DNA of 64,000 nucleotides from assembly GCA_030248295.1 (NCBI GenBank), contig JASANH010000209.1, positions 1,116,001-1,180,000 of the forward strand, read 5' to 3'. Position 1 is the stretch's first letter. Each line of letters starts with the position of its first letter. Origin of the DNA: Mesodorylaimus sp. YZB2_4. Taxonomy: Eukaryota > Nematoda > Enoplea > Dorylaimida > Dorylaimidae. Shown in pieces: positions 1 through 48,000 of this stretch. Position numbers and translations under genes: made by a program. A model generated the notes under the pieces. The model had not been told where the DNA came from. It saw only the letters and a list, made by a program, of their open reading frames with translations, and did not search any database.

Positions 1-3000
1 GAAGAAATCAGGAATTTCAAAGATGATGATGGCGATGGTTTTGTTGATGAGGATCTGAGATACACAATTCCAGTGCTATCCTTAGACCAAAACCAGCTCA
101 CCCAAATTTTTATTTGCAACACGAGCGCTGACTTGATTCCTGAGGAATGCAAGGCACCAGATTTCGGAAACTGGACCTCATCTGTAGATCCAACTTGTCA
201 GCCAGCCAATGTCACACACACTGATCATGTTGTATTTAGTGTTAACTGTTCAGCAGAGTTCCATCGACTTTGGCATTTGGTGGATGCTTGTGGGAATGTT
301 GCAAATGAGAGTTCCCAGACTATCACAGTAGGCAGGGGTGCAGGAATGTCCAAGTATTGTTGCAACAAGACGACCGATTCCCAGCCGCCTGATGGAGTCG
401 ATAACGACTGCGATGGCTTAAAGGACGAGGAGAAACGAAATTTTCTCGATGATGATGGTGACCAACTCATTGATGAGGATTTGAAATGGCAGATTCCTAC
501 ACTTACAATCAGTGATCCAACGCAACTTTCTCAGACACACATCTGCAATACATCAGGTAGCCTCATGCCAGAAGCTTGTAGAGCACCAGAAATGGCTAAT
601 TGGACATGGTTTGCTGACCCTGCATGCCTCCCTCCAAACATCTCTTTCAAAGATGAGGTTGTGTTTATTGCCAATTGCTCTGCCAAGTTCAACCGTGTGT
701 GGACCCTGGTCGATCAATGTGGAAATGTGGCAAACCAGAGCATTCAGACAATAACACTGGGTAGAGCAGCTGGAATGTCGAAGTACTGCTGTAACAAAAC
801 AGATGACATCAAGCCTCCAGATGGGATCGATAACGACTGCGATGGCGTGAAAGATGAGGAGATTCGGAATTTTCTCGATGATGACAAGGACGGGTTAGTA
901 GATGAAGACCTGGCCAATGAAGTCCCAACTTTCGTTTCCGCTGACCCCGCTCATTTGTCGCAGACCTATACTTGCAACACATCATCTGATCTAATACCTG
1001 ACAACTGCAAAGCACCTGAACAACTGAATTGGAATTTCACTGCTGACAACCTATGCCAACCCGTAAATGTGACTTTTGTTGATGTAGTCACCGCAAGAAC
1101 CAACTGTTCAGGCGTCTTCAATCGTGTGTGGACTCTAGTTGATAGCTGTGGGAACCAGGCGAATCCTATTGCTCAAAGTGTAACAGTAACCAGGGCGGAA
1201 GGTATGTCCAGGCTATGTTGTAATAAAACCCAAGACACGAATCCACCTGATCGAATCGACAATGACTGTGACTTACTAAAAGATGAGGAAATAAGAAATT
1301 TCTTAGATGATGACGGAGACGGTCTGATTGATGAAGACCTGGCTAGCTCAGTCCCAGTCATCACTTTCAACTCACCATTCCAACAAACGCAGGATTTCAC
1401 TTGTAATACGGCAGTCGACTTGACACCACAAAACTGCCATGCTCCAATAATGGCCAACTGGAGCTCAGCTGCAGACCCTCAGTGTCAGCCAGTGAATGTC
1501 ACTCATGAAGATCAAGTGGTATTCATCTCGAATTGCACATCTGTCTTCAACAGGGTGTGGAAAATGATAGACAATTGTGGTAATTTGGCCGACACTACAA
1601 CACAGGTTATCAATGTAGCCAGAGCAGAGGGCATGTCCAAGCTATGCTGCAATCAGACGGTGGATATGAATCCACCTGATGGCATTGACAATGACTGCGA
1701 TGGCGCCAAGGACGAAGAGATAAGAAACTTCCTGGACGACGATGGGGATGGACTTGTGGATGAAGATTTGCAGAATTCCATTCCTACATTGAAGCTTAGT
1801 AATCCAGACTTGCTCAGTCAGAATTTCATTTGCAATAGCTCATATGACTTGACACCTACTAATTGCCAGGCACCTGAAATGGCTAACTGGACGACCAATG
1901 TGGACCCCGCATGCGCACCAGCAAATATCACACACAAAGACGAAAGTGTAGTCGCGACCAATTGCACTGCGACATTCAACCGGGTATGGACTTTAGTTGA
2001 CTCATGCGGGAACGTGGCTAATGCCACCATCCAAGCTATAAATGTGGATAGAGTGAAAGGCGCATCTAAATTATGTTGCAATAAGACTGCAGACCTGACT
2101 CCACCGGATGGAGAGGACAATGACTGCGATGGTAGCAAGGATGAGGAACTGCGCAATCTTCTGGACGATGATGGGGATGGACTAGTGGATGAAGATCTGA
2201 TGTGGTCTGTGCCAACGTTAAGTGTCACTGACAAGTCCTTATTGGCGCAAAATTTCATATGCAACACGTCCAGCGAGCTTGTTCCCTCCAATTGTAATGC
2301 ACCTGAAATTCAAGCATGGAACTGGACAGCAGATCCCAAATGCCAGCCAGTCAACGTGTCTCACAGGGACGAAGTTGTCTTCAGTGCAAATTGTACTGCT
2401 GCCTTCAACAGGATCTGGACTATGGTTGACCATTGTGGCAATGTGGCCGACGATGCAGTGCAAGTGATACGCGTTTTCAGAGAAAATGATACTTTCAAAC
2501 TATGCTGTGACAAAACAGAGGACACAAACCCACCTGATGGCTTCGATAATGACTGCGATGGGGTCAAAGAGGAGGAGATTAGGAACTTTCAGGACGATGA
2601 TGGTGATGGCTTAATAGACGAGGATTTACAAAACATAATACCAAATTTGACCATAAAAAGTACTTCTCAGCTTACTCAATTTTACGCCTGCAACACCAGC
2701 CAGGAATTGAAACCTGAAAATTGCAAAGCGCCTGAAAAGGCAGAGTGGGCCACAATGGTCGATCCTGATTGTAATCCTGCTAAGATAAGTTTCCAAGATG
2801 AAGCGGTGTCCATGGCTAACTGTTCAGCTACATTCAATCGCGTGTGGACGCTAGTTGACGCTTGTGGGAACATCGCAAATGAGAGCATACAGACGATCAT
2901 CGTTGAAAGAGCACCGCACATGTCCAAGTATTGCTGTAACAAAAGTATGGATTCGAGCCCTCCAGATGGACTGGACAATGACTGCGATGGAGTGGCAGAT

Positions 3001-5949
3001 GAAGAAGTTAGGAATTTTGTTGATGACGATGATGATGGAGAAATTGACGAAGACTTAAGTCATGCAATTCCCATGCTCGCTTTCAATCATTCACATCTTT
3101 CTCAATCCTTTGTTTGCAACACAAGTGAAAATTTAGACCCCAAAAACTGCCCTGCCCCTGAATTCGGAAATTTGTTCACCATTGTCGATCAAGAATGTCA
3201 ACCAGCCAATGTCACACACACTGATCATGTCATATTCAGTGTCGACTGCACAGCAGAGTTCCAACGTCTCTGGCGGTTGGTAGATTCTTGTGGGAACATT
3301 GCAAATGATACTGTACAGACGATTACAGTCGACAGAGCTGCAGGGATGTCCAAGTACTGCTGCAACAAGACTGACGATTCGAAACCTCCAGATGGCATTG
3401 ATAACGACTGCGATGGCTTGAAAGATGAAGAAATCAGAAATTTCCTTGACGATGATGGTGACGGACTGATCGATGAAGACTTGAAGTGGCAGTCACCTAT
3501 GCTAAGTTTTTCCGATCCAGCGCAGCTTACTCAGACATTCATCTGTAACACGTCAGGTGATCTTGTGCCTGAAAAGTGTAAGGCCCCAGAGATGGCGAAG
3601 ATAACTTGGAATTTTGACCCTTCATGCCAGCCTCCAAATATCTCATTCCAGGATGAGGTAGTGTTTACATCCAATTGCTCAGCCATGTTCAAGAGAATAT
3701 GGTCATTGGTCGATCAGTGCGGCAATGTGGCAAATGAAAGTGTCCAAATCATCAATATTGAGAGAGCTCAAGGCATGTCCAAGTATTGCTGCAATAAAAG
3801 CCAAGATGTGGCACCTCCGGACAATGTAGACAATGACTGTGACGGACTGATGGATGAGGAAATGCGAAACTTTGTTGACGATGATGGGGATGGCCTTGTG
3901 GATGAAGACTTGGGCTATGAAGTGCCAGTTCTCGATTTTAACAATGATTCAAAAGCCGCTTTTGATTTCGTCTGCAATACATCAGATGCAATGACACCAG
4001 AAAATTGCAAAATTCCTGCAGATATGAATTTCACATCGAAAGTGGACTCTCGTTGCCTCCCAGAGAATATCACGTACCAAGATGAAATAATGTTTAGGGA
4101 AAACTGCACAGCCATATTTAACAGAGTTTGGCAAATGAAAGATTCATGTGGAAATGCTGCCAACAAGGTTATCCAAGTCATTAGTGTTAGTGCCGCTGAT
4201 GGATCATCCAGAGTGTGCTGCAACAGAACAGTGGACTCTAGTCCGCCTGATGGTCGGGACAATGACTGCGATGGGTTGAAAGATGAAGAAGTAAGGAACT
4301 TTGCAGATGACGATGGAGATGGGTTGGTAGATGAGGATTTGGCCAACGAGATACCAAAATTCAATGTCACTGATGACACGCAGCTCACCCAATATTTCAC
4401 ATGCAACACCACTAGGGATCTAGTACCAGACAATTGCCGTGCACCCGAAATGTTGAATTGGACATCAACAGCTGACCCGTACTGCCTGCCAGCCACCGTC
4501 ACATATAAGGACCGGGTACTGCTCATGACCAATTGCACAGCGGTGTTCAGCAGAAACTGGCAACTGGTTGATAAGTGCGGAAATACAGACAACGACACTG
4601 TACAGGTTATCAATGTGACGAGGACTTCTGGTATGTCCAGGTTCTGCTGCAATATTACAGAGGACTCTCAGCCACCCGATAATGCGGACAACGACTGCGA
4701 CGGGCTCATTGACGAAGAAGTAAGGAATTTCCTCGATGATGATGGTGACGGGCTGATTGACGAGGACTTGGGTAGGTCCATTCCCACAATGAAGTTCAAC
4801 GCTTCCATGCAGCTGACGGAAGTGTTTGCTTGTAATGCAACTGGCGAGCTGACACCAGCTGAATGCAATGCGCCACCCATGGACGATTGGACAGCTGATG
4901 TGGATCCTGACTGCACACCTGTCAATGTGAGCTACATAGACAGCATTGCGGCCGTTGCAAACTGTTCTGCTGTTTTCAATCGAACATGGCAGTTGATGGA
5001 TTCGTGTGGTAACATGGCAGACCCCATGGTGCAAATTATCGAGGTGAAAAGAGTACCTGGATCGTCCAAACTTTGCTGCAACGTGACTGAAGATCTTGAT
5101 CCACCCGATAGTTTGGACAATGACTGCGACGGATTGACAGATGAAGAAGCGCGTAACTTTCTGGATGACGATGGTGACGGGCTCGTGGATGAAGACCTAG
5201 GCGCCGAAATACCATTTCTAACTATAAGTGATCCAGAATATTACATAGAGAATTTTACATGCAACACGACTAACGACCTGACCCCGGACAGCTGCTCCGC
5301 TCCTGTGCTTGGTAACTGGAGCACCAGGGCGGACCCGCGATGCCAACCAGTCAATGTTACATTCAGTGATGCGCTTATTAGCAATGATAACTGCACAGCC
5401 ACAATCCGCCGTCTTTGGCGTCTGGCTGACGCATGTGGGAATGTGGCCAACGATAGTGTGCAGGTGATAAACGTTATCAGATCGTGGAATGCCAAGAAGG
5501 AATGCTGCAATAAAACGTTGGACTCGGATCCTCCCGATGGCCGGGACAACGACTGTGATGGACGGACTGATGAAGAGGTGCGAAATTATGAAGACGACGA
5601 TGGGGATGGACTGGTCGATGAGGATTTGCGCTATTCGATTCCACTCATTCGATTCAACGGGTCTGTCAATTCTACCGAGACCTACATCTGCAACAGCACA
5701 GAGGACTTGACACTGGAGGAGTGTCAGGTGCCCGACACTGCACAGTGGTTCGTGGACCCAAGGTGCGAGCCAGCCAACGCAACTTATGACGAGCAGTTGG
5801 AATTGTCGACCCCTTGCATAGCCATATACTCCAAGAGATGGCGTGTTATCGATTCGTGTGGGAATGTAGTGAATAATACAAAGCAGTTGATAACCATAGT
5901 CAGGAAGGTGGATCCAAAGATCTGGCCTTCTCCATGTTCTAATGCTTCG
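1..5949 (+). repeat. Coding array of ~14 HYR-like / metal-binding modules
   Basis: One continuous exon encodes 13 complete modules of 142-143 aa (426-429 bp) plus a final shortened one (5629-5949). Acidic linkers end at about 57, 483, 912, 1341, 1770, 2199, 2628, 3057, 3483, 3912, 4341, 4770, 5199 and 5628. Each module has a beta-sandwich-like half with CNTS, a C-x-AP motif, an F-x-R-x-W-x-x-x-D-x-CGN signature and a V/I-rich strand, then CCNKT. That signature resembles HYR-type immunoglobulin-like domains. The linker has DG-x-DNDCDG-x-x-DEE, resembling the MopE-type metal-binding motif, followed by RNF-x-DDDGDGL-x-DEDL, which looks like Ca2+-binding DxDxDG loops. There are about eight cysteines and several N-glycosylation sequons per module. 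Metal binding is inference from motif similarity. Linkers 1-3 and 7 deviate at loop positions. Confidence 0.85.
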
Positions 5950-8900
5950 GTAAGTAGTTCGTTCATATGTACACTGTGTGAAGGGACATGAGCTGAATTA
6001 TTCCTCTGCTTTTAGCAAACGGATCTTCTGGCGCTGGCTTCTCGGCTCAGCGAAGCCCTGCCATACCTGGTTCAAGCGTACAAGGGCGACTTGGCGGCAG
6101 TGGCTGGCTATACACTGGAGGAGATGATATTTGGATGCTCGTGGGATGGGCGCCCCTGTAATTTGAGGTAAGAGCCTATTCCAAAAACTTGTGGCCTGAG
6201 ATGCATGGATGGCCTGAGCGAGGTCGCGCGGGCTTGAACTTGTTCCAGGCTCAATCACTGAATGGAAGTTGATTATGCTAGCATATATCCTAGCTTCTCT
6301 TGCATACCTGACACTGGGTGCTAAGCCGAGCCGCATTGACAAGGGACGCGATGAGCGAGACAAAGAAGCCTCGCTTGTCGAACTGGCTTTTGATCTACAT
6401 GTGGAAGCGCCTCATCGAGTGACATCGGCTGGCAGTTCTGAAAGCGAGTGGCGAAAAATCCACTGCATGGGACTCAAAAAGATAAAAGCCGATGGGCTGA
6501 GGGGTCCATCTGTCTTTGGACTGGAGAGTACAGTGTAGACTGTCGGACATCACGCTGCATGATCATTGCTAAATGCATTCCTTGCACCTCGACTGATGAG
6601 TTTTTGTCCCCACCCTCCACCGCATACAAGGCTTGGTTACACTCGTCCAGAGCCTCCACAAAGGCTCTATCAGCAACTCAACTAAGCCAGGAGCAGGCAG
6701 CTGGATTGCCATGTCAGGGTGAGGCGATCTCAGCCATAGACAATTCTGGTGTGGTGCGAAACCTCCATCAGCCACTCCATCCACCAGTGGTCCCAAACGT
6801 ACTGTATTGCCTTTAGCAGTGACCACGAAACCCTGAAATTTGACGCAGCGCCCTTTCAATTTGGGGCGCAGCACACATTCGAATATCACACTCTTTCTAC
6901 ATCTAGTACTGCACCTACTACATACTCATTCTTCCTTGCAGCACTGACATCTCGAAGTTCGTCGATCCTAACTTCGGGAATTGTTTCACTTTCAACCTGG
7001 ACCAGCGCCATATTGCTACCAGAGGTGGTCATTCACAAGGTTTACAAGTCATTTTTAAAGCACGGTCCGATGATTACCTACCTTTTACTGCTTCGGCTGG
7101 TTTCAAAATCTTAATCCTTGACCAAAAGGAGCCTCGCATAGTGGATACTCTGGCCCTAGGAATATCTGCTGGCTCAAGTTACTCCTTCGCCATCAGACAG
7201 GTAAGCCCCGCTTATGTGGATGGAAAGGGTGCGAGCCAGGAATTCTTTTCAGACCATCCAAACCAAACTGGGCCCGCCATACGGATATTGCATTGATGGA
7301 AAGTCAAAAACGGCTAACTTTTACAAGGAAGGCTATTCCATGGAGGTGATTGATTTGAAATGAAGAACATGCCAGAGCTAACCAGTCTTTATTTAGGCTT
7401 GTATGAAAAGCTGCTACCAACAGGCCGTTATCGACCAGTGTAAGTGCGGAGACCCGCACACTCCCATGCCCCCGGGGTACGTCTATTGCAATGTGACACA
7501 AAGTGAGTCAGCCAGTCGTGTAAACTCAAAACATCGCGCATTATTCTCTGCATTTTCAGAACTATGCGTTGACCGAGTGGCAGCGATGAGTGCCAACATG
7601 TCCTATAGTAGTTGCGGATGCCATCCACCCTGCGAGTAAGAACCCTTTTTCCATGACAGGCAAGAGTTCTGCAGTGTTCTTTCAGGTCCACTGTGTATAC
7701 ATTTTCTCAAACGAAATCCGACTGGCCGACACCTGCTGGAGCTGTAAGTAAAACCATGGCTGCTGTGTGATCATGCAGTACTCTATGAATAATGTAGCTT
7801 TGCCTGTTCCCTCATTCCCCCGCCCTGGTAGAGACTGTGTACAAATTACAGGTGGGATAGGACATAAACCGCTGATAAATGAGTTGCGGATGGTTGAGGC
7901 TGTTGATACTGAAATGTGTGTACCGTGGCACTGTGTGCATGATAGCTGATAATAAAGGACATGGAGACGATTGCTGGTGTCTCCAAGAAACTACAGTGCA
8001 GGCAAGTTCCAGTGCCAATCCATAAGGGCCTAATTATAGGCAGTCGCTCCCCTGATCGTGAGGCGCGTGTCTGGAGTTGCCGCTCCTGGGCCATTTTTCT
8101 TGAAATTTTTAGCGATAACCGTAGTTGATGTCAGCGAAATTTCCGTAGAGAAAAAAGTGCTCTATCAAGCAGATACGATTTCGAGGTATAATTTTTCGTA
8201 TTCGGTTTTTATCAGAGATTTTTCACAAATTTTTGCGGTTCACGTAGGAAAAAATTGTTTTAAACTTAATTTAAGCACTAAAAGCAAAACACAGACAGCC
8301 AGTAGATAGAGCACATTTTTTCCACAGGATTGTTGATCACATTAACATTCATTACCGCTAAAAATTTCGAGAAAAATTGGCCGAAAGGGGCGAAGGCGTG
8401 AAAACATTTCGACAGGCGTGTGTGGACGTGATTATAATTTGGCCCTAAACCCCTCCCTACATATGTCTCCTAGATCGACCCCGTCAAAACCTTTGAGCAA
8501 GTGAGCAAGTAAGTACAGTAACGCGTACCAGAGCAGTTTCAAGGCCACAGCAGTTCTTGCACTGCCCGACCACAAACACGAACGATACTGTGTGATTAGC
8601 TGACTTCTTTTCAGGCTGCTCTTTGCTCGTGGATGATGAGCCAGGACCCTGAAACCTGTGCGATCGCTATAAAGTAAGTGAACTGCATCCCTGTCCTTAT
8701 GGATAATGTAGCCCACGGCTGGCGGACCATGCCTGGCAGACGTGAACCTCTCAGGTTGACGTTTCAGCGGCAGGTATAGTCGCGAGTAGACACCGGATCA
8801 GGTCGGATTCAACCCGACGGCTCGGGTCAACCCGACCCGAAATTTCGGGTCGGGGTGACCCGAATTCGGTATAAGTAGTTGGAGTTCCTCGCGATAAAAA

Positions 8901-10268
8901 CCATTCACAAATGCTCAGAACGTGGTGGCGTTGGTGTAAAGGTGACTGTGAGAAAATATTAGATGGAGACATCTCACGCGCGCGAATCTCCATCTTTTGT
9001 TATTCCATATCCTTAGTAAATACCATAACGTTCCTTCATATTTCCCACAATAGTTGTCAAATAATTTTTTAAAAACCTTAGATCTAAAAGCGACTATGGT
9101 CTGTCCACTGGAGACAAGATTCAACCAATCCGAATAATAGGCGTGAATATTAGAGACAGCTCTGTCATAACGTCCGGAGTCTAAGACAGCTTATCCTTGG
9201 TCAAACAAAGAAATACCTAAATATATATGAGCCCCAGGCTGGAGTTGCATCAAGTCTTCACAAAAGTTATTGCTCACAAAATCATATTGTGTTGGACAAT
9301 AGCTCCCGTCAGAACCTCCACTACTGATGGAGGGATGTGAGGGCGCCGATCACTTTTGAACACAGCAAGCAACATGGATGGTGGTCAAGGGGGCTATTAT
9401 TGGTACATATTTGGTGTTTGGGCACAGACTATATTGCTCTTCCAGCCAGGTATACCCAGGAAGTTATGTCATATTCAGAAATCAAATGTGATTGTAGATA
9501 CCCCTACGACCTGCTAAAAGTTATCAATTCCTTCTATGTTAGAGTATGGCTAGTCCCACTCATCCATCAGAGTTGAATGAGCACTTCCACATGTGGACCC
9601 TTCCCTTTGCAGAAATTACTCAGAAAAATTGGTCATTCTCACAGCTCACAATTTGTGTGACATTCTCGGAAGTTACGCAGAATGAGAACTGGAATAATAG
9701 ACTTTGTGCATGCATTCATAAAGCATATACTGCAAATCCTGGAGTCGAGCAACTATGAAAAGGTTTCTGTAGTTGCTAATAGTACTAACTTGGAAAATTT
9801 CTGTATTTTTGACCCGTTTGACCCGATCTTTCAAAGAAGTGACCCGACCCGACCCGACCCGACCCGACCCGACCCGAGAGTACCTGACCCGATCGGGGTC
9901 TAGTCGCGAGACTTGCATCGCTCCGGAGACCCAAGACCCAAGAGCCCATCTACTGACTCAGAGGCAAAGCTAGTTATTCCACCCGTGTTCTTTTGTTTTT
10001 CAGGCAAGGGTATGGTCGTGTGGACGTGTTCTATGAAGAAATAAAGTCAGAACTATTGGCCGAATATCCGCAATATACAGTAATACCTTGACTTACCTTA
10101 TTAGGCTTACTGGAACTCGCTTCTTCTACTCTTTAGTGGATGCAACTACTCGGCGACTTGTCAGCCCAAGCTGGTTTATGGTTATCTCTAAGTGTCGTAT
10201 CGATTATTGAAATCATATTCCTGCCATTCGCACTGATTCACGATAAGAGAAGCAGACGCGCTGGATGA
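1..10268 (+). CDS. DEG/ENaC-family cation channel with giant modular ectodomain (5' partial)
   Basis: Trimeric amiloride-type sodium channel family, plasma membrane. Exons read: 1-5949, 6016-6167, 6942-7200, 7397-7502, 7560-7635, 7686-7743, 10004-10079, 10137-10268 (stop TGA 10266-10268). All visible borders are GT..AG. Exon 1 carries the module array described separately. Family hallmarks follow in order: a FGCSWDGRPCN palm motif (6130-6162), NCFTFN (about 6972-6989), a cysteine-rich block with CKCGDP and CGCHPPC, VDVFYEEI (about 10020-10043), then the pre-TM2/TM2 segment LLGDLSAQAGLWLSLS and a hydrophobic helix with a short basic tail. In this family the first membrane helix precedes the ectodomain, so TM1 and the cytosolic N-terminus should lie upstream of the window. 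Exon 7743 ends in phase 0 but 10004 needs two carried bases, so one small exon in the 2.26-kb intron is unassigned. Channel identity is sure; the fusion to the array rests on a perfect GTAAGT donor at 5950 with frame kept. Confidence 0.85.
8735..8880. repeat. GACCC-rich interspersed element fragment
   Basis: Lies in the long DEG/ENaC intron. It contains a GTTGACGTTTCAGC block followed by GGTATAGTCGCGAG and then an imperfect run of CCCGACCC/GGGTCGGG units. The same blocks recur at about 9903-9925, 22255-22300 and 26010-26065. No coding capacity is visible. Confidence 0.6.
9440..9930 (+). repeat. ~450-bp interspersed element ending in GACCC array
   Basis: Non-coding element in the last long DEG/ENaC intron. 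It ends in a run of seven or so GACCC pentamers at 9840-9876. A diverged copy lies in the opposite orientation at 21740-22170, sharing the blocks AAAGTTACGCAGAAT-like, GCATTCATAAAG-like, TCCTGGAGTCGAGCA-like and GACCCGTTTGACCCGATCTTT. Copies in both orientations argue for a mobile repeat; the class is unknown. Confidence 0.65.
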
Positions 10269-17589: not shown

Positions 17590-20500
17590 CTAACCAAGGT
17601 CAGTAAATCGCCTCCTTCTTTTCTTCATTTCTTGCACATCGTGATGCAAATGCTCTAAGCTGGACAGCACTCGATCCTGGGCTTTTTGCATGCTGGCCAG
17701 TGTCCTTTGCATTTCATTCTGTGAATCGATAGCATCCACCAGCGAGTCACTTTTCTCCGCTGATCTCCTAGTTTCCCATATGACACGTCGGAATCTGAAA
17801 AAGTTTGTTAAAATGACAAATCCACTCCTGAAACTCAATTTTACGCTACATTATGGAGACACTAGCGAATCTTCAGCTGTGAAAAACTTCCTATCCCTGC
17901 ACGCTTTAGAGACACGGCTAACGAAAACACGCAGACTAAGCCTAAGCCTAAGCCTTGGATGGATAGAAAGTGATAAAGCATGCAAAAACAAAGAAACGGA
18001 CAAGTTTCAGGTAGGAAACCCATCCTGCTATTTAGTGTCGAGTACTGCAATCGGGGAACAGATCGGGGTTGTAGCCTAGTGGTTAGGCGTCTGTATCTCA
18101 CGCTAGGTGCGCACTTACAAGGGAGGGTTCGACTCCCGCCTCGGTACAAAATTATTGTCGAATTATGTGATCCGTAGCCCTCGAGTGCGCTGTACAGTGC
18201 TTGGCTATGGAAAAAATACAAAATGAAATTCCACTGTCATCCAAAGTCTCTCTGTCCATGGCACATACCAATGGTGGAACAGTGTATAAAGAGAGCCCCA
18301 GCTTGGCAACGATGCCTACCTGGAAATACGTGAGATAAACTGTCTTTTATGCCAAGCGAACTTTGCGCGACCTTGGCGATGGCTGGTCGGAGAGTGTTTG
18401 TACTTTTTCATAAACCAGGCGTGTTGAATGATGGATGCTGCTAAATTATTGCGCTATAAATCAAGAGCAGAGTTGAAGACCAAGTCACTTTGGGGCAGTG
18501 GCGGTGCACCTCTTTGGCCAGGTTATTGTCAGTTAAGAACTGATTGACGTGTTTCTCTGGCCGACTCAACTGCAAGTATCGACCTGCAACGGCCACCACT
18601 GCCGACAGGGTCATGGCGCCCTGAAATGGGTTGTGGCAGACTAGGGGAGATGGGCAGATGAGCCTTACCACCAGGCCAGTGATGATTGCCATGGCTCGGC
18701 CGCAGTATGTGGTGGCTATCACATCCCCGTAGCCGATAGACAGGAATGTGATCACCACGAACCAAATGGCCGTCAGAAAATCAGATGTGGTGTGGGTGTT
18801 GAGCCTGAAGAAGGTAGTGCAATCTCAGTCTGATTAGCTAGCACCTCTAAGAACACGCAGCATCTGTTATTCGAAAGCCAGAATGACAGTAAGCACCCAT
18901 CTGAAACCATATTTTACTCATCGCTTCAAAAGTCGGGTATTTCCCTATCAGAACAGTTTGAAAACCAAGGTGACACTGAACCTGAATTCAGGACGTGACA
19001 ACGATAGAGTGCCACATTCCTGACTGGTTGTGTAAAATACAGTTTCAGATTGACCAGGTCTCCTTCGGGTAAGTCCTCGCCTTTCGCAGATCATCCATAG
19101 CCAAGCCATGACTAGACAGAAGCAGACAGTAAAGTAGATCAGCAATCGGAAGGGATGCTCATACAAGCACGTTTTGATGACGAATGGGAAATCGACTGGG
19201 ATGTGAATCAGTGCTGCGATACTTCGAGTGGCCGTGTCCTGGTAATAGCGACTGTGGTAAGTGCAGAAACGAGCGAGTAGATAGAAACGGAGGAACATAG
19301 GCACGGTCAAGAGAATGTTCAAGGGGGCGTGGGTGCCTTTGCTGATCGAGAAATCACTACCAGCATCGATCCACAGAATATCAATGTTTTCTGAAAATAT
19401 GAACAATTCATGCTGTTTGATGCAGTCAGTGGGTGGGCGTACGTGGAAGGGGACAGATGGCGCATATGGTCATTTCGATGATGAATTGACCAATGCGACC
19501 TCGCGTGGCCGCGAATCGCCAGTCCTTCGTGCCACTGTTTAGAACGATCATCTGTAAAGGTAGCTGGCAGTCAGTCCACTCTTTCCTGTAACAGGTCGAT
19601 GTGCTCATGTCAGAGGATCGTGAGACTTCCTGGTGGTGGAGACTCACGATCAGGGGGGACGTGGTGCCACCTGTAGTGGTCTCGCTTACCTTGACTTCGA
19701 TCAAATGATATGCCACGATCAATGCCAGCAGGATAAAGGTGGTTGCGACAACTAGCGATAAGAGGATGGTGGAGATAAAATGGTTCTAAAACAGACAAAA
19801 GATAACAGATTGCTGACTGTAGTTGTTGCTTCATGCTGTGTTGGAAATGACCTCAAGTCAAGGTCAGAAGTCTGTCAAAACCCTGATTAACCGACCCTTT
19901 GTCAAAGTCAGGGTTGGGTTAGAGCGTTTCTTGAAGGGTCTGGTCAAGTCATAGATGAAAAACCCCCAGTCTTTCGAACACTTCTTCATAGTCATGACAG
20001 AATATAAGAGACACGCCCATGTCTGCATGAGTGCATCAGCGAGTGATTGCAAGGTACCAAATGTATATCCCACAAAACTAAAATATCTTGTTCTATCAAT
20101 GTTCTTCTGTTAGCCGTGCATTCCTCCTGATTAGTGGCCGATAAAAGTCCACATCAAGATGCAATCAGGGAGTAAGAAACACAGTTTGAATGTCACCTTT
20201 ACTGCTCAAGTCCGTGCAGTAACGAGTAAAATCCCAAGTGAAGGCCACGGCTAACAGAAAAACACTACTTTGTCGAAACAGAAGCAGTTTTTTTAGCTCC
20301 TCCTCCCCCCCCCACATGTAAGATTCATATCAGTGGCTAGGACAGAACTGTAAGGGGAAATGATACCCAGGGCCTCTAGATCAAAGCCATATGGCCTTGT
20401 TGATGGACTTGCTGGTCCTCGCGATAGGTACAATGCTAGATGGGTCTCACCTTGTCGATGGCACCTCCACTGATCAGTTCAGTATTGACAATGGTCAGCA

Positions 20501-20867
20501 CGATACCGACCATTGCGAAGAGCAGTGCTAAATCAGAGACGAGAATTTTAGCTCTAAATTGTTGTCGCCTTATTTGGTGTGGTGATTTGTGCGTCTCCGA
20601 CTTTGTGCCAGTCGGAGTCACTGGTGTGGACGAGGGGGCGTGCTGTGCTTGACCATTGGTCATTCCATCAGAATTGTGACTTTTAGCATGACTCTTTTCT
20701 TGATTGGCGGATTCGGGCCCATGGCTCGTGGTGTGTACGAGGTCGTTGCTGACTCGGTACAGCCTGGGACTGGTTTCCGAACTGGAGGGAGGATTGGATC
20801 CGAGACGATGAGGTGATGGGACAGGGTCCACAGCCAGGACTCGGGGCGATGCGTTTGTGCTGAGCAT
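17590..20867 (-). CDS. KCNN-like: Small-conductance Ca2+-activated K+ channel (SK/KCNN family)
   Basis: Voltage-independent K+ channel opened by Ca2+ through constitutively bound calmodulin. Eight exons: 20867-20451, 19785-19690, 19551-19443, 19390-19081, 18804-18669, 18620-18510, 18453-18320, 17794-17590; 505 aa; all phases consistent. S1 is ALLFAMVGIVLTIVNTEL, S2 TTFILLALIVAYHLIEVK, then SGTKDWRFA. S3-S4 carry LLTVPMFLRFYLLAR and HSRYYQDTATRSI, followed by S5 ending MICER. The pore is TFLSIGYGD with TYCGRAMA, and S6 runs into LQLSRPEKHVNQFL. The calmodulin-binding region is exon 7 (NNLAASIIQHAWFMKKYK) plus a C-terminal coiled coil in exon 8. Start ATG 20867 follows an acceptor-like T-tract/CAG, so 5' UTR or alternative coding exons may lie upstream. 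The exon 4 donor appears to be GC (see finding). Confidence 0.93.
18061..18225 (+). mobile_element. tRNA-derived SINE
   Basis: Best-preserved head in the window: A box TAGCCTAGTGGTTAGGC and B box GGTTCGACTCC with the right spacing, then a TCGAGTGCGCTGTACAG-type body and an A-rich end. It is antisense to the SK gene, in its last intron. Confidence 0.8.
18901..19048. mobile_element. MITE-like element, family 2
   Basis: Terminal inverted repeats CTGAAACCATATTTTACT (18901-18918) and TGTAAAATACAGTTTCAG (19031-19048) bound a 148-bp non-coding unit inside the SK intron between exons 4 and 5. Confidence 0.65.
20102..20265. mobile_element. MITE-like element, family 1
   Basis: TIRs TTCTGTTAGCCGTGCA (20105-20120) and GCCACGGCTAACAGAAAAAC (about 20244-20263) bound a non-coding unit in SK intron 1. 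Confidence 0.65.
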
Positions 20868-21739
20868 GGTTTTGGATTTCTGAAAAAAAAAGCCGCTAGG
20901 AAAGATCTGCAGTGACTTATGACCTCCCACGCCCCCTTCCCCCCCCCCCACCTCCACCCCCCTTATCTCCCCTCCACCCTTCCACCTCGGCCCCTCGGTG
21001 TACGCACACTGAGAGGGACGAACTGGAAGGAACTTGCCGGCTTCATCTGCGAGGACACACGTTTTCATCTATGGTCTCAAGGGCAAGCCTAAGGAGCCAA
21101 TAATCCAGTAACCATGTCCTAGTCTCACCCAGAAATTATTTAGGACACGACTCCTCTGAACTTTGCCTAATTCATCTCGGCTCAAATGATTTTTTTAGGA
21201 TGGTCACATGGCAGCATGGGCACTTGGAGATATTGTCCCGATGCTCTTGAAAAGACTAGTTCTTGCAGCAGAGTCGATCGAGAAAGGCACAGATTAATGA
21301 TTGATGGGCGTGACTAATTGGGTGCGCTGATTCCGATTCGGGGCAGGCAATGACGACGATCCTATGGGCAATTTATGCATGACTGACCCAGCTTCTGGGA
21401 AGATGATTGATTCTACACTTGGTCTGTGCGAAGCGGTGACAGGGGATAGGTCGTCCAGCTACAGTATAAGAGATGGCTTAGGTGGGGGTCGAACCCGATA
21501 CCTCTCAGGATCGTGCCTTGGTATCTGGGGGACAATCTGTATCTAGAGCGTTGCCAGGTGGAGAGATCTTGCTGCCATGCAGGGGAGGAATACCGACCTT
21601 TGGCGAGTGTATGAGATGTGTGCAAAAAGAAGTCACTTTCTGCCGAACGCGCCTCTTGGCGACGCATGTACTGACTTACTGCAGCGTAATGTACAGCACG
21701 CATTCAGTGGAGGGCATCCCGCGGAGCTACCAGGCACTA

Positions 21740-24269: not shown

Positions 24270-26850
24270 GCATGGGAATGTTGAAAGAGGGTATATTGCA
24301 GAATCTTCAACTACCGCTGCAAGGACTCGATAAGCTAATGTGAGCTTTACCCCATGTCCATGAGTGATAGCGAGTATCTAAAAATGAGCAAAACCAGCAG
24401 TAATTCAGAATGCATAGCGTACGACTATGTTCGATGAGTGCAGGTGACAGAAAGTACGCGACTGATATAGCCATCTACTGGCAGGCAAGTTTTCTTGTAA
24501 CCGGGCGAATGAAGAAGAGACGACACTGTGCCCATTTAGTGAGTTGAGGGCTTCACTGGCTTTTGATAATCTCCCTGCAGTGTTTGAGTGCCACAATAAA
24601 TAATGTATATTTGGCCATCTTGACACTGCTTATGTAAATCGGAGCCTTGCCAGTTTTATCCTCATGCACTCAATTCCCGCAAGATTGACATGCATAATGT
24701 TCCGCAGTGGAGACTTGCGAGAGCAGCTGAATGACCTCCGTTGGAATTCATACTTTATACCACCATCCAGGATCGATCGATTGAAACACTCCATGCAGGC
24801 TTTTGTCGTAGGAGGAGGAGACATCAACGCACTGGGTCTGCCTTCTTTTGAAGGGGCCCTTAATTGAGGCAGCCATACACTGCTCGGTTATAAAGTTTGG
24901 CGTGGCCAGTCAAGCAAAGGCATCCAAATACATCGCCTTTTCCGCAGGCCAAACATACCTCTAAGAAGCAGTACAACCTCCCTTCAAAATGAAGCCATTT
25001 ACACATCTCCTACGTTGTTTAGAAAGCTCTCGAACTCTTTGGTGCGGTTGCGTCTAGTGAGCGCGTCTGATTTTTCATCTAACTGATCGAAAAATCCTAT
25101 GCGTGAAATTCGAATTTTGTGAGCACAGGCTTGGAGACCGGCACAACACCTACGCTAACACATAAGCAACTCGCCACCTGTACAGGCGTGCTTATCGCTT
25201 TCCATGTTTCTTTTCGTCGTGTGTGGCTTGGCCAATCCAGACAGATCTTTTTCGGATAGGCAAGAGGAAAATGTAGGTAGCATCCGCAGGTACACGGGAG
25301 TACAGGAGGTACAGGAGGTTCCGGGCAATATGGCAATGGAATATCTTCATAATGGTCCAGATAGGGCTTACAGAATTACAGAAGCCTAGACTGGGCCTTT
25401 TATGTACAGTAGTTAAGGTGGACTAATTTTAGTCTGCTTCCTTTTGAAGGAGGATGCTTTATGCTGTTTTCCGTGTCCATCACATCTCACATAAATAGCC
25501 TCGCATTTATTGCATTTTAGTGCGGATACTGTGATCCAGACTTTCTGATTCAGTCTTTAGGTCATCACATCCTCAGCAGAGAGGTCTGCGTTAACAAGTG
25601 ATCAGTTGTTTTAATACTCCAGTGCCAATCACACTCTTCGCATCCGAGTCAAGAATAGTGTATCTGAGAGCAGCATGATAAGTCTGTTGAGCATTGATGA
25701 AAAAGTAAACTACTTTTCGCCATGACGAAAATACAGGTTTTTGTCGGCGTTGAATCTTGCTGAAGACTATCAGACAAAATTTAGTCGCTTTTAGACTATA
25801 CCAAGGTATTTTTCAAATAATTAGACCACTATAGTCGGAAATATGGAGCAATGCTGTTTTGGAAGGTGTACTGGGGATAACAAAACATGAAAATTCGGGT
25901 GCGCATAATAAAATGCTTCCTTCATTTTTCACACAGTCACCTTTACAGAAAAGTTATCACATGTTCTGAGGATTTTATGAATGGTTTTTATGGCGAGGAG
26001 CTGCTATAAGGAATTCAGGTCAACCCGACCCGAACCCGTCGAAATCAACCCGACCTGATCCGGTGTCCACTATGCACCAGAGCCAGGTTTGCGGCAGCCG
26101 TAGGCGTCTGCCTGTCACGCTGGGTGCGCATTTACAGGACAGGGTTCGACTCCCGCCTGTATAAAAATGATTGTCAGTCCTAGCCCTCGAGTGCGCTGTA
26201 TGGCATATGACATGAGCCTGAGCTGTTGTTGACCTACCGCCCTGCAACGCGACAAGGGGCCAGACCCGAAAAGACTACATTGTGCATCTGAAACAATACA
26301 GAACATACAGTAGCTGCTCAAGCATCGTTCGCTAGCAGGTAGAGCTCTCTGCTGGCTAGACCAATGACAGAAGGCAGTTTCACCGAGATCGCGGAGAGCT
26401 TGCGCATGGTTAGGTTGTGAACAGTACGGAACCATAGTTGCGCGTTTGCCTTTTCTCAGAGATTTAAGTACTTATGCGCTTGTCAGCCCTGTACGCACCA
26501 GTTTTGTGAAGTACAGCCAAACAGGTCATAAATGGATTGCGATATTGCATTGCAACCAGGCTGTAATTTGAGGCCAATCACTAGAGCATACTGCAGGTGA
26601 ATAGGCCACGGCATGATGGATATGTAATGCATACATATCCATGGTGCTGCTGCAACCGTAGCAAGCTTGGGAGGGACTGTGACCGGGTCAGTAAATCCAC
26701 TTGCAGCAACGCAAATGTCATGCTGTAGAGATATTGACCAAGCTGGACTGGCTGTCGCTTTGCATTTGATACTAACCTGTTGTGCAGTGCCGTGCCTTTT
26801 GGTTGTTCTCTTATCATCAGTTGAGAGTCGGGCTGGTACACTGGCTGGCA
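24270..26850. other. Gap between lectin gene and RTE fragment
   Basis: No exon recognised on either strand. A short GACCC/GGGTC remnant (about 26010-26065) and a SINE (26085-26220) are present near the right end. The rest looks like ordinary intergenic sequence. Confidence 0.5.
26085..26220 (+). mobile_element. tRNA-derived SINE (5'-damaged)
   Basis: TAGGCGTCTGCCTGTCACGC, the B box GGTTCGACTCC and the TAGCCCTCGAGTGCGCTGTA body match the other copies. The A-box start is eroded. Confidence 0.65.
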
Positions 26851-26855
26851 CAAAA

Positions 26856-27555
26856 GCAGCGTGACGGCGCCTATCTCTGGGAAAACAAAGGAGATGTGAC
26901 CGAATTCTCCAACTACTCTCCTATTCGCCCTCTACGTCGTGCGATGAAAATATTCGAGAGAATTATCGATACCCGACTGCGGGAAATCGTCGCAGTTACG
27001 CCAAACCAATGTGACTTTGTTGAAGGGAGCGGAACAACCGACGCTCGTATCTTCCTGGAGAAGGACTGTCCATATCTCGATCTCGAAAAGCCGTTCGACC
27101 GAGCTCCCCACGACCTCATCTGGCACTTCCTCCATCATCATGGAGTCCCCGAGGCCTGCGTCGAATGGACCAAAGCTGTCTGCAAAGACGTCACCAGTGC
27201 AGTCAGATGCGCAATCGACCTGTCACCGCCCTTCGTCATCAGCGCTGAAGTCGATCAAGGATGGCATTGTCACCTGTCCTTTTTCATCCTCTGTATGGAT
27301 GCCATCACAGCCGACCTCCAATGGCCCCACCCATGCTCCATGCCCACCAGTGAGACCAGAGCAGCAACCCAGAGGGATTCTCAGCTACGGAAGGATAGGT
27401 TATACGAATATGGCCAACGGCGTAACATCACGAAGACAGAGTAGCTGGAAGGTGGCCCCAAATCGATGGCACACAGCATCGACAATGAAGAACTGAAGGA
27501 ATGAGGAATTCCAATCGCTGGGTTCAATCATTAGCCACGATGCTGGGAGAAATGC
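26856..27555 (+). mobile_element. Dead RTE-like non-LTR retrotransposon fragment (reverse transcriptase)
   Basis: An open frame includes MKIFERIIDTRLREIV, TPNQCDFVEGSGTTDA, LDLEKPFDRAPHDLIW, HHGVPEACVEWTK and FILCMDAITADLQ. These match conserved fingers/palm segments of RTE-type reverse transcriptases. Where the YADD catalytic box should follow, the sequence jumps to TSETRAATQ. A later frame recovers FQSLGSIISHDAG near 27510-27548, typical of the segment downstream. The N-terminal endonuclease and most of the RT are absent, so the copy is inactive. There is no LTR. Confidence 0.8.
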
Positions 27556-36074: not shown

Positions 36075-39000
36075 ATGAAGTGGACGTGGATTTACTTATG
36101 CTTGCGCTATTGTATGGTGACCATTGTGGCAACGCATTCCAGCGTGTCCAAGGTCTTTCAAAATCCCGATGCTCAGTCCTTGCTCCCGTTTCAACATATG
36201 GTAAGTGAGTGGGACTGAACAATCAGCTGGGCCATCGATTGACTGCGAGGAAGCTCCTGATTAGATGGTCTGGTACATCATCGATTAGGATCGTTCCTAA
36301 TCGATCGATCATCAATTAGGATAGCCAGATCCTGATCATCGAGTGGGGATAATGAAGTAGGATCGCCAGATCTCTGGATCCTGATCGCCAAATCCTGATC
36401 ATCGATTAGGATATCCTAATCGATGATTAGAATATCCTAATCGATCGATAATGAAGCAGGATCGCCAGATCCTTATCGATGATCGAACCTAATCATCGAG
36501 TAGAATCGCCAGATCCTAATGAATCAATCATCGATTGGAATCTGATCCTAATCGAATTGATCGATCATTTTCTAGCGATCCTGATCGATCGATCGTACCA
36601 GACCCCCTGTATCATGTGAGAGCACAGAAGAGCTGTGTATTTTCAGGTGGTGGAGAGGCAGTTGTACACTGGTCGGGTGTACGTGGGTGGTGTGAATCGT
36701 CTGTACCAATTGAGTCCCGATTTGGACTTACAAGCTCGCGTGGAGACTGGCCCGTTCGAAGATTCGCCCGATTGCCCAGCCTCGCGAGCGTCGCCGTGCG
36801 AGGCCAAGAAACAGTTGACACCGAATTACAACAAGGCGTTGACCGTGTACGCCAAGCAGTCCAAGTTGATGGCTTGCGGGTCGTTGTATCAAGGCTCGTG
36901 TCGATTGCATAAATTGTACAATATATCGGACGCGGATCCGCCGGTGGCCGAGGCGGTAGTGGCCAATGACCAGTACTCGTCGTCCATCGTTTTCGTGGCA
37001 CCGGGGCCGCCTTTGTTGCAGGAATCGTTGTACGTGGCCAGTACTTATCCTGGCCAGGGCAAATTCAATGACGAATTACCGGCTGTGGCCACCAGAAGTT
37101 TAGATGGCAATAGTTTCTTGAAAGTGGCCCATCGTACGATAAATAGCGAGACTCAGATGTTTGTGGAGAATACGTTGAGGAGGCAATATCGTATTGAATA
37201 CGTTTATGGATTTTGGTCGGGCAATTATTCGTATTTTGTGACGAGACAACCGCGACAAGCATTTTCGTCGAGTTATCATTCGAAATTGGCTCGATTATGT
37301 CAGGCTGATCAGAATTATTATTCGTATACGGAAGTGCCGTTGGAATGCGTGGATGAGAATGGGCACGAATATAATTTGATACAAGCCGCTTATGTGGGCA
37401 AACCGGGATTCGATTTGGCGCGAGATTTGAATGTGAGCGTGGAGGAGGACGTGTTGTTTGGTGTGTTCGCCAAGGCGTCGGAGGGGGGCGTCGATCGATC
37501 GCCGTCCACGCCGACCAGGCAATCGGCGTTGTGCGTGTATTCGATTCGACAAATCGAGGACAAGTTTATGGACAATATTCGATTATGCGCTAATGGATCC
37601 ATGATGAGGGGATTGAGTTTTTTCAAACAAGAAAAACCATGCGCCAAGACGGCCTATGTAAGGAGATGGGGGTCAGTGAGTCCAGTCCAGGGACAGCCGT
37701 GTGTTATGTGGGGGAGGAGCAGGGGTCTGTGGGGTAAGTGAATCCAGGGGAGGGGAGGGTTGCTGGGGTCAGTGAGTAGGGACAGCCATGTGTTATGTGG
37801 GGGAGGGGCAGGGGTCTGGGGGAAGGAACAGGGGAGGGGAGGGTTGCTGGGGTCAGTGAGTAGGGACAGCCATGTGTTATGTGGGGAGTGGAGGCAGAGT
37901 CTTTTAAGGGAGGTCTGGTGGGACCAGCCGGGGGACTTGGTGGGGTCCACGGGCCCAATAAGCTGTGCGTTCTGCGGAGGAGCGGAGGCACTCTTTGGGG
38001 GGAGGTCTGGTGGGACCAGCCGGGGGACTCGGTGGGGTCCACTGGCCCAATCAGCTGTGCGTTCTGCGGAGGAGGGGAGGCACTCTTTGGGGGGAGGTCT
38101 GGTGGGACCAGCCGGGGGACTCGGTGGGGTCCACGGGCCCAATAAGCTGTGCGTTCTGCGGAGGAGCGGAGGCACTTATTGGGGGGACGGGGTCAGTGAG
38201 TCCAGGGACAGCCATGTGTTCTGAGGGGAGTGGAGGGGATGGGGTAGTCGAACCAGTGGGTGTGATAGAGCGTAGAAAGTGAGGTGGAGTAGTGAAGGAC
38301 CAGGGGGTGAGGTAAGTGATTCCAGGGGAGTGGGGGCAGTGTCTTCGAGGGGGAGTGGGGGAGTGGTGGGGTCAGTTAGCCTAGGGACAGCTATGTGTTC
38401 TGAGGGGAGTGGAGACACACTTGGGCGGAGCTCTGGTGTGGGGGATCGGTGGGGTCACTGAGTCCAGCGAAGTGGAGGACTGGTTGGGTCAGCGAGTCTA
38501 GGGATAGCCATGTGTTTTTAGGGAGGGTGAAGGCAGGCTCTTTTGGGGGTGGGTCAAACCAGGGTGTGTGATAGGGTGGAGATATCAGCAAGGGATTAGG
38601 AACAGGCGGGGTGTTTTGGGAGGCCAGCTCGGACTGGGTTTCATGCAGAGATGGGAGTTCGACGTGATAATGGGACAAGAAAAGGACGAATGGTGAGGGG
38701 CTCTCTCTGACGGGGTGTACATCTTAGTCAAAACAGGGTGAATCCTTTCTGGTCTGTGGTGTTTTCAGTAAAAAGAAACAGAAATTGTTGTGAGCCACCT
38801 CCTGGCCTCCTTGTGTCAACTAGATTCGTACCCTCGACCCTGGTGTCGACTGAGGGGCCTAGACACTAAAAAGCCTAGCCTCGAGTGGGACTCGAACCTG
38901 TTGGTGGGGGTTCGACTCCCAGCCGGGGATAATGTTTTGCTTTTTGATGTTGTATATTGAATATTGCTCATATATATTTAAGGCATCTGATTATTTGGCG

Positions 39001-45000: not shown

Positions 45001-48000
45001 CATAGGAAAGTGCAGTCAGGACCGATCGTGGTCAAATTGAAGGACGCTATCGATTATTACGCGTTGTCGGAACCTGGATTCGATTATGTGGTATGTGGCA
45101 CTCACATGACTTTTCCTGGGAAAACTCACTCTTTGTCGAATGCTAGCGGGGTGACACCTAACAAGTGCATTGTGTATGCCTTCTAGGATCCGTCGATCGC
45201 GAGTTTTTCACCGATCGAAGGGCCTCAATCGGGCGGCACGATTATTACGATTCTGGGCGACAATTTGAATGCTGGCTCGAGTGTGCAGGCCACAGTGGCC
45301 GGGGTTCCGTGCGAAGTGACGCGGTAAGATGAGTGTGTTCGATAGGAGAATGGGTGATTTGGAATTGTATTTATAGGAGAGAGAAAGATCGAGCTTATTG
45401 TCGCGCCGGCGCAAGTTCGGCCATCAAAACTGGTGGTTTAGTATTGTCGTTCGATTCGGCGACTCGGATGTACGTGGATAAACAATATTCGTATACGCAA
45501 GATCCGATCGTGACCATGGTGAAACCGAAACAGAGCACGGTGTCGGGCGGAATTCATGTGCGAGTCGATGGCGAACGATTTCATTTGATTCAAAATGCTC
45601 GTATGTTCTTTGTACACAATGGACAAGAATATTCGTCGACGTGCGATGTGGTGAATGATGGGCAGACCGAGTTGGCCACTGATATTCGACGATCGCCCAC
45701 GACTGTGACCACGTTTCTCAAATGCCGAACCCCGCGAGTGCCCGTTTCGCCGACCGATCGAATGTATCCGCTGAGAAGTCGACCATTACTCGTCGATTAT
45801 GGATTCGCTTTGGATGGAGTAATTGTGAGCGGAGCTGGAATGAGGAATGCGACGAGTTTGGCGATGAGTGGAAATTTGTTCTATAACGAGAATAAATTTA
45901 ATGTTTATCCGGATCCGACGTTAAGCCAATTTGGAAAACCAGGCGATGCGAAACCGATAAAATTCTTTAGAGGCGATTTCTTATCGATTGATGGAGAAAA
46001 TTTAGATTTGGCGGCGGATAAAGAGGATGTAGAGGTGAGGAATAAGGTTTTTGTGGCTTCGGGCTAGGGAGGAATCTAGTTTAGAGAGATTCCACCCGCA
46101 GCTGACGATGTTTCCACTTAGTCCTAATCACAGAGTTCCCAAAAAAGCCTGAATTTCTGGATTTTCTCCCTAAAATCTTATTTGCATTTTGGGCGTCATC
46201 CATGCGACCAGCGCCGTTTCAATCCAAATTTTTCACAATTACCAGAAGCAGTCGTGAAGGCAATTTTTGAATTCGGTCAGGGGCCCTAAAATAGCCTTTC
46301 TTTTATTCTGTGCCACAAAACAGCCTTTTTCAACATAGGGTTCCCACGGCTTTTTCAAAAAGCTACAGTATGTTGAAAAAACGCTGTTTTGTGGCTCTTA
46401 ATAAAAGAAAGGCTTTTTTACGGCTCCTAATAAGCTTAGATTCAAAAATAGGCTTGGGCGCAGAATAATCAAACAAAAAGGTGCAGAAGGAGAACAATTT
46501 AAAATTTCCGTCGATTGCAGTAGAGATACGTTTATCGCGTCTATTTTTCGCTGACTCTCGTGAGCGAGTGACCAGAAATTTTAATTTTCACAAATCTAAG
46601 TTCGCCTAGCGCTCAATTTCCAAAAAAACGCACGTTTTTCCTATCAAAACATCGTTTTCTAGTTTGGCGTCGCACAGGGCGCACACGAAACGGCGTCAGC
46701 AGTGTTCCTTTGTTATAAGCAGTTGAAGCGGGAAATTCAAACATGTGTGTTCCGATGATGGAATGATGTGTTTTAGGTGTATATCGGCGATAAAGCGTGC
46801 GTTGTGTGGAGTTTGAAAGGGAACGAGTTGATTTGTAAGCCGCCGACGGAGCAACCGATTCGAGCAACGTCGTCGAATCAGCAATCAAGTGTATCATCGA
46901 GCGGATTTTCGGGCGATGGTCTACCAGAAGTGACGGTTCGGGTTGGTGGTGCGAATTACACGTTGGGTTATCTAAGTTACGACGATCCGAGTGGATCGGG
47001 TGCTGGCGCGTTGCCGCTCGAAACGATCGGGGCTGTGGCGGGCGCTGTGGGAGTGTTGGTGTTGGCCATATTGATATTGTTGATAGCGTATAGACGGAAG
47101 GCGACCAGGCAGCGAAGGCAAATGAATTCGTTGAAAGAACATATCGACGCAATCGAATTGAAAGTGGCCAGCGAATGTAAGGAGGCCTTTGCCGAATTGC
47201 AGACGGACATGACCGAAATGACGGCGGCGATCGATAATTGTCTGGTGGTCATACCGTTCTTGTCGTACCGGGACTACGCAGTGCAAGTGCTGTTCCCCAA
47301 TAACATGGTCAATAATCCAATCGATAAGCAGTTGGATGTAAGTGGGGCGGGGAGAGGGGCGGGCAGGGGAGTGAGTGAGTGAGTGTTCCAGGTGGACCCT
47401 CATCGACGACCGTTGATCGAGAAAGGACTGAGGACGTTCCATACGCTGTTGATGAACAAACCGTTTTTGTTGATGTTTATTCGAACAATGGAGGCCAACA
47501 AGTATTTTCTGAGCAAGGACAAAGTGCATGTGGGCAGTTTGCTGATGGTTATATTACAAGATCAAATGGAATATTGTACGGACATATTGAAAGCGTTGTT
47601 GAGCGAACTGATTGGTCGGACGGTGGAGAGGAGATATCAACCGAAAGTATTGTTCCGACGATCGGAATGCGTGGCGGAAAGAATGTTGGCTACGTGGTTC
47701 ACGTTTTTGATGCATCGATATTTGATGGTGAGTAGATGATGAGATTGGGTTACAAAAGTGTTGTAGTGGGTGGGAATCGAACCTGGGACTACAAGGTGTA
47801 ATATGAATTGGAAGTGTTGTTGAAGGGTTGGTGATGCAGTGGAGCAGAAACAGATGGATGATCGGGTGATGGGTGAAGATATTGGGGAATCAAAAAGTGT
47901 TGGAGTGGGTGGGAATCGAACCTGGGACTACAAGGTGTAATATGAATTGGAAGTGTTGTTGAAGGGTTGGTGATGCAGTGGAGCAGAAACAGATGGATGA

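Follow-up and report, generated by a model that had tools for sequence, protein, structure and literature searches.

The first 10,268 bases of a 64,000-nucleotide stretch of the Mesodorylaimus sp. YZB2_4 genome (C11:1116001-1180000; hereafter the window) belong to a gene that almost certainly encodes, in one polypeptide, the first transmembrane segment (TM1) and palm strand of a DEG/ENaC channel, an IgGFc domain, 27 tandem modules and the rest of the channel. The initial annotation, which was made from the window alone, had proposed a giant HYR-like, metal-binding-like array in the extracellular region of such a channel; the IgGFc domain lies upstream of the window and was invisible from it. 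Taken with its mechanism, the interpretation that we favour, with moderate confidence, is that the gene encodes a DEG/ENaC subunit with a built-in mucus- or matrix-type tether.

The window was extended upstream by 40 kb in the source assembly (145.1 Mb in 1,067 contigs), and exon limits were chosen by eye from phase, splice signals and knowledge of the family. The resulting gene occupies C11:1107642-1126268 on the + strand and has 15 exons encoding 4,807 amino acids (aa), with the sole stop at the end. All 14 introns are GT-AG and their phases agree across the model; ten are 50-75 nt long and the others measure 650, 774, 871 and 1,330 nt. The open frame of the 5,949-bp exon initially described was confirmed, since frame 1 is open from base 1 of the window to a stop at 5989-5991, but the true exon is far larger: the frame extends back to C11:1109941 (4,016 codons altogether), and exon 6 (C11:1109990-1121949; 11,960 bp), which starts 6,010 bp upstream of the window, holds the whole array. 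The 14 modules counted within 1-5949 correspond to 13 linker anchors (DNDCD) and the tail of one module cut by the window edge. At the 5' end of the gene, an exon with the start codon, a basic stretch and a transmembrane segment is followed by an exon reading LKFPAVSFCNMNPYK and then by pieces of the IgGFc domain; this TM1 lies ~8.1-8.4 kb upstream of the window and is phase-compatible, which places the array between TM1 and the palm, as had been suggested. The in-frame join to the channel exons likewise held: splicing from the donor at 5950 (GTAAGTAG) to the acceptor ending at 6015 leaves exons 7-15 (6016-10268) in frame and free of stops up to 10268.

The two ends of the polypeptide both match the ASC profile (PF00858, cut-off 23.6 bits). 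Profile positions 4-90 align with aa 19-103 in a Pfam scan of the N-terminal 640 aa (E = 1.7e-15, 57.5 bits), and positions 144-455 are found in the C-terminal 340 aa (E = 2.2e-56, 192.2 bits), which bears out the family assignment originally given to the 3' exons. Solved relatives of the C-terminal part comprise 27 chains in a phmmer search, the best being ENaC gamma, alpha and beta and ASIC1. Along the complete protein, hydropathy (19-residue averaging, cut-off 1.6) gave clear transmembrane-like segments only at aa 33-56 (TM1) and aa 4774-4800, that is, at the two ends. The DEG/ENaC features of the protein are the profile on both sides of an insert, two transmembrane segments separated by a large loop, and the NCFTFN motif and thumb cysteines of exons 8-12. 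The insert, of ~4,365 aa, is placed between ASC positions 90 and 144, which we take from ASIC/ENaC structure to be the finger, the outer variable part. It contains a complete IgGFc_binding domain (PF17517, positions 2-297 of 297) at aa 282-586, found in the same N-terminal 640 aa (E = 4.9e-48, 164.3 bits, cut-off 25.6). Two furin-like dibasic motifs (aa 128-131 and 180-183) lie between beta1 and this domain, and a third match falls in the cytoplasmic tail.

The array downstream of the IgGFc domain is built from modules of ~143 aa, their 27 linker anchors being spaced 141-145 aa apart. Each module consists of an acidic two-loop linker, DNDCDG..DEE.RNFLDDDGDGLIDEDL, and a cysteine-containing HYR-like domain, and pairwise identity between modules averages 60% (range 38-87%). 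The insert has a net charge of ~-444 and carries 225 cysteines and 146 N-glycosylation sequons; two kinds of Asp-rich loop occur 27 times each, 54 in all. Among the 22 of 27 modules that are equal in length, the proportion of nonsynonymous differences (pN) is 0.244 and that of synonymous differences (pS) 0.776, and pN is the lower in 231/231 pairs; the median ratio of nonsynonymous to synonymous rates is 0.12 among 30 unsaturated pairs, and differences fall at codon positions 1, 2 and 3 in the numbers 9,405, 7,408 and 19,018. This purifying selection between modules indicates that exon 6 is constrained coding sequence.

The proposed names for the module were borne out only in part. HYR_4C (PF23237) is the best Pfam match of the window array, with 40.5 bits over the whole 1,983-aa stretch against a cut-off of 27, and a two-module stretch scores 20.3 bits. 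Plain HYR (PF02494), the name first considered, was not among the Pfam matches up to E = 1 and was dropped, and Cu-binding_MopE (PF11617) stays below its cut-off in the window array (24.3 bits versus 27; 11 stretches), while 9/12 single modules scanned show a MopE-like motif (E up to 0.1). The module thus appears to resemble HYR_4C and MopE only distantly. A genome search with PF23237 gave zero matches, as it did in the control genomes, and is hence uninformative. Bacterial relatives of the module were found at no fewer than 20 loci; among the matches listed, 16/20 stop at or before query residue 52, within the linker or shortly after it, and 4/20 extend to query residues 60-106. No whole-module bacterial relative was found among them, in a search biased by the fact that both of its patterns sit in the linker.

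Paralogues repeat the plan of the gene, including its critical junction. The gene on C79 was read in part and that on C90 at its two ends only. In C11, C79 and C90 alike the end of the giant exon is in phase 0, the exon after it measures 152, 167 and 170 nt, respectively, and the following intron, just before the NCFTFN region, is in phase 2. Translated past the donor without splicing, the three frames close after 13, 9 and 2 codons, respectively, while splicing yields a homologous palm exon in a common phase in each case; it is thus unlikely that the stop at 5989-5991 ends a gene of its own, the outcome that the initial annotation had named as decisive against it.

Exon-level searches of the genome gave at least 114 ASC matches, 42 IgGFc matches, and matches to the channel ends numbering 118 on the palm side and 80 on the N-terminal side. 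The IgGFc matches group into 20 loci, and 12 of these, the window gene included, have TM1/beta1 upstream and the palm downstream: two on C1, one each on C11, C79, C90, C114 and C387, and five on C233. Here TM1/beta1 had to lie within 6 kb upstream and the palm within 15 kb downstream, on one strand, with the palm before any next TM1/beta1; the count drew on the rows from the contigs in question (46 of the 118 channel rows and 29 of the 80 N-terminal rows) and left out additional exons of the window gene. From the density of all rows, the chance per locus is ~0.006 for a palm match within 15 kb and ~0.002 for TM1/beta1 within 6 kb. At seven of the 20 loci no channel match is in range (C14:758893, C151:21849, C175:78102, C18:674325, C257:63083, C41:352021 and C49:373621), and two of the seven (C14 and C151) have a module-like match; these loci are possibly secreted relatives. 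The IgGFc locus at C233:64-65 kb has beta1 upstream and a module match, and reaches a palm only across the beta1 of the next gene, which could reflect a broken or diverged member. A separate channel on C233 (TM1 near 49.6 kb, palm near 41.2 kb) has no IgGFc match. Further split-exon DEG/ENaC matches occur on C290, C51, C61, C14, C41, C188 and C281, so that the DEG/ENaC set of this genome is large, and some beta1 matches lie inside frames of ~1,800 aa (C56 and C86), hinting at other giant ectodomains.

The spacer that follows the IgGFc domain differs between paralogues. On C79 the domain is followed by one linker and module and then by 1,821 aa, 18% Ser and 17% Thr, up to the end of the frame and the palm; C79 appears from its composition to carry a mucin-like stretch where the window gene has its array. 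A candidate transmembrane segment ahead of this S/T-rich stretch was rejected: the hydrophobic run lies between a GTAAGCAG donor and a TTTTTAG acceptor whose phases match and, at 63 nt, is probably a short intron. Locus L064 on C233 has one full module and a second stretch that resembles it in part, both followed by a Thr-rich region (139 T of 313), and other module-matching loci genome-wide have one or two pieces each. A likely history is that a single ancestral module was multiplied to 27 in the window gene.

A tether or surface-coat sensor is the most likely function, in our view by a little better than an even chance. The sequence gives the order of parts as a short cytoplasmic N-terminus, TM1, the first palm strand, the insert at the finger, the rest of the palm and the thumb, TM2 and a short tail. 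The whole insert is predicted to be extracellular, heavily N-glycosylated and strongly acidic, and its 54 Asp-rich loops may bind Ca2+. It would act as a tether or sensor coupling the finger to mucus or matrix, and so would take over the role of the tethers, separate proteins or glycans, that have been proposed for MEC-4 and ENaC; gating would then be mechanical or Ca2+-dependent, as we infer, and a further guess is that the stiffness of the array depends on Ca2+. Cleavage at the dibasic motifs at aa 128-131 or 180-183 would convert the loop to a free strand. More tentatively, at rather less than even strength, the window gene might be one of about a dozen DEG/ENaC channels that form a lineage-specific family. 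Each would have its own covalent mucus or matrix strand in the finger (IgGFc, HYR-like modules, and a mucin-like or tandem-module spacer), through which the channel would directly read the force that acts on the surface coat, or the Ca2+ state of that coat. The window gene would be the most extreme member, its 27 modules having arisen from the single module of the relatives read.

Several observations weigh against this interpretation. The gene is known here from genomic sequence alone. The insert enters and leaves one finger and would form a loop unless cleaved, so that force transmission is less simple than through a strand. Eight of the 20 IgGFc loci fail the channel test. No single module reaches the HYR_4C cut-off, HYR_4C being absent among the matches of the 12 single modules scanned, and a search of PDB with the module profile returned no solved structure up to E = 1. 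One stretch of module 13, at aa 2368, has a hydropathy of 1.60, equal to the cut-off within rounding; it is taken as the core of the repeated domain rather than a transmembrane segment. The His-Gly (HG) motif before TM1 is replaced by NA (STLNALRH), and the G-x-S (GAS) belt of TM2 reads SLS, with GCC in the C90 paralogue. An excerpt of one review of the family (PMC10148893) links both motifs to gating and selectivity, and their replacement means that the subunit may not conduct alone. HG is highly conserved, and several other channel loci in the genome retain it, yet DEG/ENaC membership is set by the profile.

These replacements also speak for the strongest rival, namely that the protein is a non-conducting, DEG/ENaC-derived receptor or regulatory subunit whose array binds mucus, matrix or particles and whose core serves as an anchor or heterotrimer partner. 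Of 30 other channel loci (L001-L030), 11 matched a TM2 pattern and ten of those keep G-x-S, a proportion to be read with the fact that the pattern itself demands small residues at the belt positions. Against a silent subunit, the palm, cysteine block and TM2 are intact enough for the highly significant C-terminal ASC match, and gamma-ENaC has SCS at the aligned belt residues, so that the first belt glycine is not strict within the family and an altered belt alone does not end function. Cation conduction by this subunit is possible on its motifs, and we regard a purely receptor-like role as unlikely, at about half the weight given to a tether.

Less probable still is a chemical sensor, in which gating would change when Ca2+ or another metal binds to the acidic loops, or when a ligand binds to the IgGFc domain. 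The abundance of Asp-rich loops and the MopE-like motif speak for it, and the DEG/ENaC family includes proton- and peptide-gated channels, according to an excerpt of PMC10507113. The MopE scores are under the Pfam cut-off, however, and the C79 and C233 paralogues read contain a T/S-rich stretch and only a single module of this kind, which indicates that a large number of metal sites is not a general trait of the family. We think that the order is a tether or surface-coat sensor first, a receptor or silent subunit second and a metal or ligand sensor third.

The remaining alternatives concern the gene itself, and a misjoin or separate gene is very unlikely. Tandem repeats are error-prone in assembly and a single assembly was examined, so that the join could be genuine and the module count wrong through collapse or expansion; the 38-87% identity means that no two modules are recent copies, which makes false duplication unlikely, and although a collapse could have occurred, we give an assembly artefact very little weight. 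Equally improbable is a pair of adjacent genes, one for a secreted IgGFc-HYR protein that would end at 5989-5991 and the other for the channel. The in-frame stop 13 codons beyond the donor and the seven channel-free IgGFc loci would fit such a pair; it is rejected because the IgGFc exons are preceded by TM1 and beta1 and the array is followed by the palm, leaving a separate channel without TM1, and because C79 and C90 have the same junction and phases.

Table 1. Parts of the channel gene within the window (positions count from the first base of the window).
Feature	Position	Strand	Basis
Exon 6, 3' half: putative extracellular array from module 14 (tail) to module 27	1..5949	+	Open frame, full exon, modules, purifying selection
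Phase-0 intron, 66 nt, from array exon to first post-insert exon	5950..6015	+	Donor GTAAGTAG, acceptor CTCTGCTTTTAG; phase same in paralogues C79 and C90
Exon 7: back into channel ectodomain, ASC profile from ~position 144	6016..6167	+	Gene model, Pfam
Exon 8: palm, NCFTFN motif	6942..7200	+	Gene model, Pfam, phmmer
Exon 9: palm/thumb	7253..7345	+	Gene model, Pfam
Exon 10: thumb cysteine block (CMKSCYQQAVIDQCKCGDP)	7397..7502	+	Gene model, Pfam
Exon 11: cysteine block, continuation	7560..7635	+	Gene model, Pfam
Exon 12: ...SDWPTPAGA	7686..7743	+	Gene model, Pfam
Exon 13	8615..8673	+	Gene model
Exon 14: pre-TM2 strand (VDVFYEEIKSELLAEYPQYT)	10004..10079	+	Gene model, Pfam
Exon 15: TM2 with SLS replacing the G-x-S belt, short cytoplasmic tail, stop	10137..10268	+	Gene model, Pfam, hydropathy

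Elsewhere in the window, a Sema domain at 36620-37741 (+; E = 2.5e-7) and a weak TIG match under the cut-off at 45333-46067 (+) are ordered on one strand and are perhaps parts of a plexin gene. A piece resembling an SK-type calcium-activated potassium channel, under the Pfam cut-off, lies at 20436-21068 (-), and a reverse transcriptase piece (PF00078, E = 1.4e-7) at 26776-27444 (+) is likely to derive from a retroelement. In the genome at large, exon-level matches number 121 for innexins and 169 for Cys-loop receptors. These matches make a sponge, ctenophore or placozoan origin unlikely and, together with the Sema domain and the SK-like piece, point to an animal that has a nervous system and is probably a protostome. 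COX1-like stretches with in-frame TGA occur on long contigs (C73:253316-254668 and others), a feature to be expected if they are copies of mitochondrial DNA.

The route by which force acts on DEG/ENaC channels is under debate, and a central difficulty is that the tethers proposed, being separate molecules or glycans, cannot easily be exchanged. In the window gene and its relatives the candidate tether is part of the channel protein and sits at the finger; nature offers about a dozen versions, and the spacer is of a different type in at least two of them. An insert that can be shortened, exchanged or cut with the pore left intact would put the tether model to a direct test. The gene would also show the extent to which a DEG/ENaC finger can be lengthened, and it ties these channels to mucus-type domains.

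In the open-access literature on ENaC, degenerins, tethers, IgGFc and HYR, judged by title, we found no protein of such architecture; UniProt and InterPro, which may hold predicted entries, were outside this search. FCGBP is a secreted mucus protein. Proteins of its type share the complete PF17517 domain with the window gene, in which the IgGFc domain is instead inside a channel. The likeness to ENaC and ASIC (PF00858) covers TM1, the palm strand, NCFTFN, the thumb cysteines and TM2, whereas ~4,365 aa at the finger, NA for HG and SLS for GAS set the window gene apart. The nearest named fusion found is that of the EGAS channels: EGAS-1 to -4 of C. elegans also join a DEG/ENaC core to extra extracellular domains, but the added domains are EGF, and an excerpt of PMC10424705 lists EGAS among 19 subunits or isoforms without significant current in a screen. 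Degenerins and ENaC are modelled, in the excerpt of PMC10148893, as tethered by matrix proteins or N-glycans, and the tether suggested here shares this idea with the MEC-4/MEC-10 degenerins; the matrix partners of the latter, such as MEC-5, are separate proteins, whereas the candidate tether of the window gene is part of the subunit. Similarly, N-glycans of ENaC have been proposed as a link to the matrix for shear force (PMC7958617, in excerpt), but these glycans sit on a normal ectodomain, whereas the sequons of the window gene lie on its giant insert.

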